From positions 1,054,001 through 1,118,000 of the forward strand of contig NZ_JAFBFW010000001.1 in assembly GCF_016909495.1 (NCBI RefSeq): 64,000 bases of DNA. Reading direction: 5' to 3'. The notes under the pieces were generated by a model, which had not been told where the DNA came from, did not search any database, and saw only the letters and a list, made by a program, of their open reading frames with translations. The DNA is from Pantoea coffeiphila. Lineage in GTDB: Bacteria; Pseudomonadota; Gammaproteobacteria; Enterobacterales; Enterobacteriaceae. This document shows positions 12,537-15,118 of the stretch, piece by piece. Position 1 is the first letter of the stretch; each line of letters begins with the position of its first letter. The translations under genes were made by a program, and so were the position numbers.

Positions 12537-12590
12537 TACTGGCGAGACGGGCGGAGAGCGTGACGGTTTTCAGGTTTTTATGGCTTCTGT

Positions 12591-12673
12591 TTTTCGCGGA
12601 TTAAGGAGCGAAGAAACAGGGGCCGTAAAAATGAGGCAGCGGACAGAAATATTTTCGCGGGTTAAGGAGCGAA
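12591..12673. repeat. Pair of 22-bp hairpin direct repeats
   Basis: TTTTCGCGGATTAAGGAGCG followed by AA at 12591-12612, and the same sequence with a single A-to-G change at 12652-12673; the starts are 61 bases apart, about six helical turns. Each copy can also fold, because TTTCGC pairs with GCGAAA (TTCGC/GCGAA in copy one). The spacing and symmetry suggest binding sites for a transfer or partition protein at one edge of oriT. Confidence 0.75.
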
Positions 12674-12859
12674 AATAATTCAGGCACCGCGCCTCACCTG
12701 CAAACAGCCGCGCCCACGCGGATTTTGCAGGCCGGGGGAGCCGGATAAATTTCGCCGCCCCAGCGAGCGAAAAGCTGTCGCCCACGACAGCGGTTTATTT
12801 GGGGGGCATCGCCCCGCACACCGTCGCAGATAAGTCTCCGGCCAAAAGCCGGTAGCGTG

Positions 12860-12966
12860 GCGCGACCACCCTCTTTAAAGGTCAGCTTCCCTTTTATTCC
12901 CGCTACGAGGAACGAGTAAAGGGAAGAAAAAGGCGAAAGCGACCGTCTTAAAGGGGGTGGTCGCGC
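12860..12966. repeat. oriT inverted repeat with nic-like motif
   Basis: Outer arms 12860-12879 and 12947-12966 match at 18 of 20 positions, including a perfect GCGCGACCACCC / GGGTGGTCGCGC core. Inside lies a second pair, CTTCCCTTT (12886-12894) and AAAGGGAAG (12918-12926). By analogy with CloDF13, nicking would fall after GGGTG at about 12959/12960. The nick position is an inference, because both arms carry the motif on opposite strands. Confidence 0.7.
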
Positions 12967-13232
12967 GTAGCGGGCGACGGTGTGCCGCCGTTGACGTTGG
13001 GGTTTTGGCACGGCGTCCAGCCGCGACATTACCCCCATGTGACAGGCCATAAGGGCGTCCAGCCCGCATGTACTGGCGCACGCCGTTCGGGCAGGCAAGC
13101 ATGCTTTCCTGCACATGGTCGCAACGCGGCCACCTTCTTCGTCCCTGACGTTCGCCCCGCCTTTTCGCCCAACACCGTGGGGCGAATTGATGGGGCGACG
13201 TCATGGGGCGAACTGCTGACGAAGGAGGCATC

Positions 13233-15107
13233 GTGATTTTGAATAAGCTGGCCGTTTCACTGTCGCCGATAGTGAATGGCGCGCTGAGCTTCATTGCTTT
13301 TATGCAACAGCACCAGCTGATGCTGGCGCTGTTATCGGGGCTGACGATGCCGTTTTTCGCGTCGATGAAAAGCGATGAACGGCAAAAAGCCCCGTTGTGG
13401 CAAAAGCTGATTATCGCTTTTTCCCTGCTGTGTTTTCTTTGCGGTACGATGGCCCCGGTTGTTATCTGGATTTTCCAGTGGCTTTATAAAGGCCGTGTAG
13501 TCACCAGCATTCCCGTTCTGGCATGGTCGGTTCTGATTACTTTTACCGTAACGGGTTTTATTTTGCATATTCTGCTGCGCAGGGTATTAACCCCTGAATT
13601 AGACAAAATAAAGAAACGCCTCGTCAGAAAAACCACGCTTGAACGGGAATTACGCACCGATGTCCGTACGGTGAAATCACTGCTGCCGGAAACGCTGCAT
13701 TATGACCCGCTGGATTATATCGACTTGAACAAAGGGTTATTTATCGGCATTGACCGAGATATTCAGCCGATGTATTTGCCGTTAAAAGACTGGCAAAAAC
13801 AACACGCGGATATTATCGGCACCACCGGCGCCGGTAAAGGCGTTGCCACCGGCATATTACTTTATCAAAGTATTCTGGCCGGTGAAGGCGTATTTGTTAT
13901 GGACCCCAAAGATGATGAATGGGCACCGCACCTTTACCGCAAAGCCTGCGAGGATGCAGGCAAACCTTTTGCCCTGATTGACCTGCGAAAATCGCAATAC
14001 CAGTTAAACCTGATTGAAGAGATTAACGCCGATGAACTGGAAGAGCTTTTTGTTGCCGGTTTCAGTCTGGCAGAGAAAGGTCAGGAGTCAGACTTTTACC
14101 GGATTGACGACCGGAAAGCGGCCCGAATAGCCGCGCAGTTTGTTAATCAACATGCCACCGCAACTATTCGGGATGTGTATAACGGAGACTACGTTCAGGG
14201 TATTGCCGATAAGATAAAAGCCTTTTTCGGGAAAATTGAAGAGCTTGCCTTACTCAATGCCATCAATGCGCCGACAGGATTTTCGCTTAATAAGATATTT
14301 GAGGCAGGCGGTTGCTGTTACGTCATCGGTTCAATGCGCAACAGCAAAATCATTACCGCTCAGCGCATGCTGCTGGTTCGCCTGTACCAGCTGGCAGAAA
14401 GGCGCGAGCGGGTGAAAGATGTGCCCCGCCCCATTGCAATTTATCTTTCCGAACTGAAATACCATTTATCCAGGCCCGCGCTGGAAGGTTTAGGCGCGGC
14501 ACGCGATAAAGGCGTGCATATTATTATGGACCATCAGTCTATTGCCGATTTAAAAGACTGCCCGGCAGATTTGAAAGGTGACGCCGTTGTCGGCGCTGTC
14601 GTTGAGAACGCCAAATTCAAACTGGTTTATCGTGTCATGGATCCGGATACCGCTGAATGGGTAGCCAGAATGTCAGGCACTATATTAGTCGATGATGAGG
14701 TCCGCAAAGCGAAAACCGACGCCGTGCTGACAGAGACTATCGACAGTGAACGCACCATCAGGCAGGCCGAGCGTTTCTTTACCGACAGCAATATGATCCT
14801 GAACCTACCCGATTTTGTCAGCTTCATCTTCACGACAAAAGCACTCCCCTCTGCTTCGCTGATTTCGCCCATCAGGGTGAAAAAACGCGAACTGGAGATC
14901 TGTGCCGTGTCGCCCGCAATATCCGCCACCGCCGCAACAGTAAACATCACCCTGGATTTTGGCGAGGAGGAAACTTCCCCCGGACCCGCATCAACACCGG
15001 ATATCACCACAACGCGGCCCGATCTTTTTTTTGATGAGACGAGCGAAAAAGACACGACAATGCCGAATGCCGACAAAGAGGAAAACCCGTCATTGCTAGA
15101 TTTTTAA
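13233..15107 (+). CDS. mobB: MobB, VirD4-type coupling protein
   Basis: A 624-residue type IV coupling protein. Three or four N-terminal membrane helices (within about residues 20-120) are followed by an AAA-type motor with Walker A GTTGAGKG (196-203) and Walker B GVFVMDPKDDEW (about 221-232). It brings the relaxase-DNA complex to the VirB channel. I place the start at GTG 13233 because AAGGAGG lies seven bases upstream; the longer frame from ATG 13203 has no site. The pairing with mobC matches the mobB-mobC pair of CloDF13 and of ICEKp1-type elements, where the plasmid or ICE carries its own coupling protein. Confidence 0.9.
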   Translation: MILNKLAVSLSPIVNGALSFIAFMQQHQLMLALLSGLTMPFFASMKSDERQKAPLWQKLIIAFSLLCFLCGTMAPVVIWIFQWLYKGRVVTSIPVLAWSVLITFTVTGFILHILLRRVLTPELDKIKKRLVRKTTLERELRTDVRTVKSLLPETLHYDPLDYIDLNKGLFIGIDRDIQPMYLPLKDWQKQHADIIGTTGAGKGVATGILLYQSILAGEGVFVMDPKDDEWAPHLYRKACEDAGKPFALIDLRKSQYQLNLIEEINADELEELFVAGFSLAEKGQESDFYRIDDRKAARIAAQFVNQHATATIRDVYNGDYVQGIADKIKAFFGKIEELALLNAINAPTGFSLNKIFEAGGCCYVIGSMRNSKIITAQRMLLVRLYQLAERRERVKDVPRPIAIYLSELKYHLSRPALEGLGAARDKGVHIIMDHQSIADLKDCPADLKGDAVVGAVVENAKFKLVYRVMDPDTAEWVARMSGTILVDDEVRKAKTDAVLTETIDSERTIRQAERFFTDSNMILNLPDFVSFIFTTKALPSASLISPIRVKKRELEICAVSPAISATAATVNITLDFGEEETSPGPASTPDITTTRPDLFFDETSEKDTTMPNADKEENPSLLDF

Positions 15108-15118
15108 AGGGGGTAATG

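Follow-up and report, generated by a model that had tools for sequence, protein, structure and literature searches.

The intergenic region at 12537–13232 bp of the window (the whole 64,000-nucleotide stretch of DNA that was analysed), which lies between a TrbM-like gene following virB11 and the mobB gene, is almost certainly the oriT of an integrated VirB/MobBC element and belongs to the MOBC (CloDF13) type. Comparison of its sequence with that of its relatives indicated that the main nic quite probably lies in the right, mobB-side arm of an inner inverted repeat. The full reading, a MobBC oriT in which the + strand is nicked in the right arm, the mobB side is transferred first and the left arm acts as pairing partner, is also likely on these grounds. 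This type of oriT is already known, and two nic sites in the inverted repeat have already been published for relatives. What is new is that paired arms are common upstream of mobC, that the arms change in step, and that a flank and direct repeats are found on one side only.

The inner inverted repeat consisted of a left arm at 12860–12878 bp (− strand) and a right arm at 12948–12966 bp (+ strand). These were 95% complementary, had 69 nt between them and were nested inside an outer inverted repeat, the left arm of which (12816–12827 bp) matched the right (12974–12985 bp) perfectly over 12/12 nt. The preliminary description had reported paired arms of 20 bp; the pairing was real and the arm length was 19 nt. 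It had also placed a nic-like motif on opposite strands in the two arms, and GGGTGGTCGCG was indeed located in both, at 12861–12871 bp (−) and 12955–12965 bp (+). These were the two exact copies in the 64-kb window, in which no further copy was found even when one mismatch was allowed. The nic-like GGGTG/GTCGCG lay at 12867/12866 in the left arm, the predicted pairing partner, which had a variable 3′ flank and no adjoining GCGTCCAGC. In the right arm the predicted nic in GGGTG/GTCGCG was at 12959/12960. This arm was followed on the + strand by a conserved 3′ flank, GTAGCG (12967–12972 bp), that was absent beside the left arm, and then by the right outer arm at a near-constant offset. Beyond these were two + strand direct repeats of GCGTCCAGCC, the first at 13013–13022 bp, a candidate relaxase binding site, and the second at 13055–13064 bp, 42 bp from the first.

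Arm pairing in the window exceeded chance, unlike the motif by itself. With at most one mismatch GGGTGGTCGCG was seen twice against 1.4 expected, and at least two copies occurred in 42/100 shuffles. Inverted repeats matching at no fewer than 18/19 positions with a gap of 40–120 nt had 8 placements anywhere in the window, and none of 20 first-order resamples contained one. Folding of 12800–13000 bp compared with shuffled sequences gave z-scores of −7.6 and −8.1 for the two strands (0/200 shuffles each), and the exact arm-pair pattern was found at a single place in the window's own genome. To the left of the oriT core, between 12591 bp and 12673 bp, there were two 22-nt direct repeats of the TTTTCGCGGATTAAGGAGCGAA type (95%), the second of which overlapped a small inverted repeat.

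The preliminary description had put the repeat just upstream of a MOBC relaxase. It was upstream of mobC, but the next gene was mobB, encoding a coupling protein, and mobC came after it at 15116–15868 bp (+ strand). The longest mobB ORF (13203–15107 bp, + strand) matched Pfam TrwB_AAD_bind and had relatives annotated as T4SS DNA-binding or DNA-transfer proteins; its start is probably the GTG at 13233, as in the annotation of the chromosomal relative L077. The mobC product was assigned as a MOBC relaxase with D148, E162, E164 and K168 from NCBIfam (NF041423) and alignments, and it scored 368 bits against NCBIfam MobC_subf (cut-off 200). An alignment of 22 sequences had invariant E162, E164 and K168 and a nearly invariant D148, in agreement with the D...ExE...K pattern, and D148, E162 and E164 were also invariant in six distant sequences. 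No Pfam family matched the window's MobC at E ≤ 1, and a sequence search of solved structures with MobC returned no match. A structure model of MobC was of low confidence (pLDDT 67.8) and gave no Foldseek match at E ≤ 0.001. A second look at this model placed restriction, nicking and VRR_NUC nucleases among the top rows (Z 7.1–7.8, rmsd 3.1–4.2, 91–133 residues aligned), mixed with other proteins and at Z values that chance matches also reach.

The virB1–virB11-like secretion genes occupied 2248–12173 bp (+ strand), with Pfam matches for five ORFs. A tyrosine integrase was encoded approximately 28 kb upstream of oriT, and no tRNA genes were found in the window or within 20 kb on either side. 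The element is a putative ICE, a label that rests on its gene content and this integrase. The region beyond mobC encoded arsH, arsR and arsB (16377–18816 bp), where the close relatives L075 and L077 have ArdC. Adjoining the arsenic genes and an IS110 transposase was a Retron Ec67-type reverse transcriptase/endonuclease fusion (20965–22881 bp, − strand; NCBIfam NF038237, 748.9 bits). Beside the retron was a large AAA_13 protein (23574–25949 bp, − strand; PF13166, 554 bits), which is possibly a member of a defence cluster.

DNA similar to the oriT region was found in 325 records of E. coli and in 276 of plasmids. In the annotated regions that were read and in which both genes are annotated, the similar DNA was upstream of mobB-mobC, preceded by virB genes in many and by an H-NS-like gene in some. 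The window's repeat was likewise linked to a MobC-family relaxase and a MobB coupling protein, and the nic core T(G/A)GTC was present in both inner-repeat arms, as it was in CloDF13. In four loci (L006, L009, L044 and L045) the oriT was approximately 300 bp upstream of mobC, leaving too little room for an intervening mobB, and no MobB match was found in the available stretches of these loci. The site thus goes with MobC rather than with MobB.

Published relatives have the same arrangement. A 1760-bp virB11–mobB segment of ICEKp1 confers oriT function when carried by a cloned plasmid (PMC6761156); the window is like ICEKp1 in that its oriT also lies between virB11 and mobB. The suggestion in the preliminary description that the segment is a candidate oriT of CloDF13 type was therefore supported by this functional region, by the MobC_subf match and by the same paired arms in CloDF13. 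The accessible text of PMC2262945 gives the order oriT-mobB-mobC for pMET1 and HPI-ECOR31, with two nic sites since nic is inside an inverted repeat, and the window shares both this order and the nic motif in both arms. Whether one or both arms are used is a question already raised in print for these relatives, as transfer of either strand was suggested for pMET1 (same text of PMC2262945). Either-strand transfer is not favoured here, and the window differs from HPI-ECOR31 and pMET1 in having arsenic genes beyond mobC. No published statement on the nicked arm in the ICE branch, or on an inverted CloDF13 oriT, was found in a literature search that did not reach the primary CloDF13 and HPI-ECOR31 papers.

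The conservation analysis covered 81 loci and the window, 82 sequences in all. Upstream of mobC, 61/82 had an accepted arm pair; 16 with mobC had none, and five were outside the count. As this search demanded identical five core letters in both arms, equality there was partly by construction. In an earlier search of 69 sequences each arm was free to differ by one base independently and the best-matching pair was kept. This revealed a pair in 45/69, and the eight of these 45 that deviated from GGGTGGTC all had the identical change in both arms. All 61 loci that had inner arms also had a 10-nt outer repeat, which matched at 10/10 positions in 59 of them and at 9/10 in the other two. Positions −5 to +3 were equal between the arms in 26/26 arm types (60 loci), and three of these positions varied among types; L057, which had a pair and a short mobC, was left out of the tree and arm-type counts.

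Ten of the 16 pairless loci with mobC had less than 2 kb upstream of it, so that the oriT was mostly out of reach, and one (L004) was the window's own mobC. The right arm of L039 was intact, and its left arm contained two N. No arm pair was found in L037, L055, L058 and L062, in which mobC was present. L056 (around 5672 bp) had a natural oriT deletion in which both nic arms and the spacer were gone and the outer repeat, direct repeats and mobC were kept. The five sequences outside the count (L059 and L078–L081) were those in which the window's MobC matched no mobC; L059, the CloDF13 record, and L078 nonetheless have paired arms.

A MAFFT alignment of 18 paired loci picked for diversity showed that 95.8% of 553 cells in the nested repeats form standard pairs, compared with 36–53% in slid versions. 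Changes on both sides were seen in 11/31 pairs, nine in the inner repeat and two in the outer. None of 500 shuffles reached the pairing percentage, the both-sided changes or the covariation score, and 1/500 reached the number of pair types. On a MobC tree of the 60 loci, 29/38 right-arm changes were accompanied on that branch by an identical change in the left arm, including 8/8 at position −3. Because recombination of a whole oriT could inflate such counts of parallel changes, an oriT-flank tree was built with the arms left out, and this gave 17/25 mirrored changes (5/5 at −3). As the outer repeat, which lacks a nic motif, covaries as well (2/12 pairs changed on both sides), the pairing itself appears to be under selection, and equal arms are not in themselves proof of two nic sites. 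Position −6, with no mirrored change in either tree, escapes this constraint. Two further clues to the strand used were rejected. G-T wobbles (12 of the 553 cells on the + strand, five on the − strand and 18 on neither) were not decisive, and the A/G difference at −6 fits a + strand G-T pair but does not discriminate since the right arm mostly has G there.

The two arms differed in what adjoins them. At flank positions +8 to +12 there were 36 left changes and seven right changes on the MobC tree, none of them mirrored, and 17 left and four right on the oriT-flank tree. Exact GCGTCCAGC was found 54–58 nt from the right-arm core in 46/60 loci and 96–100 nt from it in 54/60; with up to two mismatches these numbers were 59 and 54 of 60 loci respectively. 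In the window the GCGTCCAGC repeats were at +54 and +96 from nic. The core-to-core distance varied from 79 to 94 nt among 60 loci (L061 left out), whereas the GCGTCCAGC distances were near-constant. Measured from the core end, the right outer arm began 10–14 nt past the right core in 59/60 loci and 6 nt past it in one, whereas the left outer arm was 12–51 nt from the left core. To judge by these spacings the right arm forms a rigid unit with its flank, the adjoining outer arm and the repeats, relative to which the left arm floats. The mobB-side arm is favoured as the site of the main nic because a conserved flank and repeats at nearly constant distances occur there only.

CloDF13 is a mobilizable plasmid type, and CloDF13-type plasmids encode a MobC 27–28% identical to that of the window; a search of the CloDF13 record with the window's MobC gave no match. 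The record (L059) contained the same paired arms, of which the mob-distal one carries GGGTGGTCGGG and its partner GGGTGGTCAGC. The orientation of the mob genes was taken from an annotated mobilization protein in this thinly annotated record and from an annotated relative, L061, with a similar oriT. The CloDF13 oriT is like that of the window in that its paired arms contain GGGTGGTC, the GGGTGGTCGGG arm has two GCGTCCAGC repeats beside it (at +49 and +98) and an outer repeat is visible in the sequence (measured in L061). It differs in having a core-to-core distance of 70 rather than 94 nt and a third GCGTCCAGC between the arms, at −27. The outward flank of the GGGTGGTCGGG arm scored 20 against the window's right flank (shuffled 11.1, sd 1.9; 1/300 as high) and 9 against the left, whereas the flank of the other arm scored 16 against the window's left flank (6/300 as high) and 10 against the right. 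The outer-repeat offsets of L061 were also swapped, at 21 on the right and 10 on the left. As the repeats and the matching flank sit at the mob-distal arm, the CloDF13 oriT is inverted with respect to its mob genes. The mapped nic of CloDF13 we take to be GGGTG/GTCGGG. Since the same asymmetry is seen at the GGGTGGTCGGG arm of this inverted oriT, the right arm of the window is the counterpart of the arm with that presumed nic.

Similar architecture was found in six Gram-positive plasmids, namely pAM373 and five plasmids that encode relatives of its relaxase (four enterococcal and one from Listeria at 39% identity). All six had a perfect inner repeat of 20–27 nt with TGGTC in the arms and an outer repeat of 17–22 nt; the chance of TGGTC on either strand in an arm that long is approximately 4% by a hand estimate, and the six plasmids are related. 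Five of the six had an array of at least three direct repeats with a period of 11–12 bp on one side only, approximately 63–174 bp from the nic-like site of the facing arm (measured by hand in the five); no array was detected in L088. These distances are near those reported for pAD1, in which TraX binds five direct repeats approximately 70–120 bp downstream of nic (accessible text of PMC12857230). The pAD1/pAM373 oriT is like that of the window in having an inner repeat nested in an outer one, with TGGTC in each of the inner arms, and direct repeats at a distance from the nic-like site. The repeat and arm sequences differ outside TGGTC, and the oriT is flanked by the genes for the coupling protein and the relaxase, with the arrays on the side facing away from the latter. 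The arrays of pAM373, L086 and L087 were on the coupling-protein side, whereas ssb or anti-CRISPR genes were on the relaxase side; pAM373 had a second ssb on the secretion-gene side. L088 had an anti-CRISPR gene beyond the relaxase, no ssb or anti-CRISPR gene was found in the stretch of L090 that was read, and the L089 record carries no annotation. Clues to direction therefore clash in at least three Gram-positive plasmids, in which one of the two rules, that on repeats or that on leading regions, does not hold, or else both arms serve.

A scan of viral contigs with the arm-pair pattern identified four contigs, one of which (L078) encoded a Replic_Relax protein at E 5e-5 and 23.9 bits, under the cut-off of 25.3; the other three gave no Replic_Relax match. 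The L078 arm pair, found by DNA pattern alone, was at 729–817 bp with 22-nt arms containing GGGTGGTCGC, upstream of the Replic_Relax-like protein and of an ORF with weak AAA/DUF87 matches. When used as a query, this protein matched only itself among the viral contigs, and searches of plasmids and phages gave no match. A MobC profile search of the viral contigs was empty, as was a search with the right-flank pattern, the gap range of which was shorter than the window's own spacing.

The direction of transfer was considered using the ArdC N-terminal domain, which was searched for in 15 of 19 whole plasmid records, those with an ICE-type or Vibrio-type oriT; the four CloDF13-type records were left out. 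ArdC was encoded in 10/15, and in all ten it lay to the mobC side of the oriT and was read from the opposite strand to mobC, although these are related elements sharing ancestry and not ten independent cases. It was annotated at the same place in the chromosomal relatives L075 and L077. If the right arm is nicked, ArdC would therefore enter the recipient early. The accessible text of PMC11541004 takes the side opposite to the relaxase as leading and describes no discernible anti-defence enrichment for MOBC; this assignment may be reversed for the ICE branch. The direction rule is itself unproven, given that repeat arrays and ssb or anti-CRISPR genes are on opposite sides in three of the Gram-positive plasmids.

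Other readings of the nested repeat were weighed against a single main nic in the right arm. Both arms could be nic sites, with either strand transferable or with one arm starting and the other ending transfer, as has been suggested in print for pMET1 and HPI-ECOR31. This would agree with the suggestion in the accessible part of PMC2262945 and with the equality of positions −5 to +3 in all 26 arm types, which is partly due to how the pairs were searched for, and it would explain the clash of direction clues in the three Gram-positive relatives. A conserved flank and near-fixed repeats at the right arm only nevertheless argue against equal use of the arms of the sort seen in R6K-type two-oriT elements, and covariation of the nic-less outer repeat (2/12) means that pairing alone can keep arms alike, leaving use of both arms improbable. 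Nicking of the left arm on the − strand would send the virB genes first and mobBC last, following the usual rule that relaxases are typically lagging (PMC11541004, in its accessible part). The presumed CloDF13 nic in the mob-distal arm would also fit that order, but the CloDF13 repeats (+49/+98) and flank similarity, and the near outer arm of L061, are at the mob-distal arm too, whereas those of the window are at the mob-near arm, which makes nicking of the left arm quite unlikely.

That the nested repeat is a structured RNA, a terminator or a regulatory site of the mobBC operon rather than an oriT is suggested by its position upstream of mobB and its strong folding. Against this, an Rfam search of 12100–13400 bp gave no family at gathering score, with two matches that were both far below it. 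The same structure is also found approximately 300 bp upstream of mobC in the four loci with no room for mobB and is turned round in CloDF13, and the corresponding ICEKp1 region functions as an oriT (accessible text of PMC6761156). Such a role is thus very improbable.

The sequences themselves show how the site is built and that it is conserved, covarying and asymmetric, and from this the nicking, the choice of arm, the direction and the role of pairing were deduced. With the main nic in the right arm, MobC, aided by MobB, would probably recognise this arm together with the flank on its 3′ side and both GCGTCCAGCC repeats. The + strand would be nicked between 12959 and 12960 (GGGTG/GTCGCG), such that entry into the recipient would begin with mobB-mobC and the genes beyond and end with the virB genes. 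A left arm kept complementary would allow the nic region to form a hairpin or cruciform. It may also supply the complement in cis and thereby restore a double-stranded nic on the single strand that has been displaced, as would be required for a round of transfer to end. We infer this role for the left arm because MOBC relaxases resemble restriction endonucleases and seemingly form no covalent DNA intermediate. According to the accessible parts of PMC12857230 and PMC9299015, PD-(D/E)XK enzymes are relatives of the MOBC relaxases, TraX of pAD1 was not seen to form a covalent intermediate, and MobC of CloDF13 probably works without one. That the pairing is a device for a double-stranded nic is a tentative proposal, less likely to be right than wrong. 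More doubtful still is its extension to MOBC oriTs from Enterobacterales and Vibrio to Enterococcus and Listeria, in which the second arm would be a built-in template for a double-stranded nic and the oriT of the ICE branch would be turned so that the relaxase gene leads.

If this were true, a restriction-enzyme-like relaxase working without a covalent intermediate would cut, and rejoin, double-stranded sites only, hence the nic in both arms. How MOBC and MOBH relaxases for which no covalent intermediate has been detected direct and rejoin the transferred strand is left open in the accessible text of PMC12857230. A turned oriT in the ICE branch could likewise explain the absence of anti-defence enrichment for MOBC in a survey that took the relaxase as lagging. 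The covarying arms make the role of the second arm, whether in initiation, termination or both, directly testable. The choice of arm sets which genes enter the recipient first, and hence the assignment of the leading region for MOBC elements.
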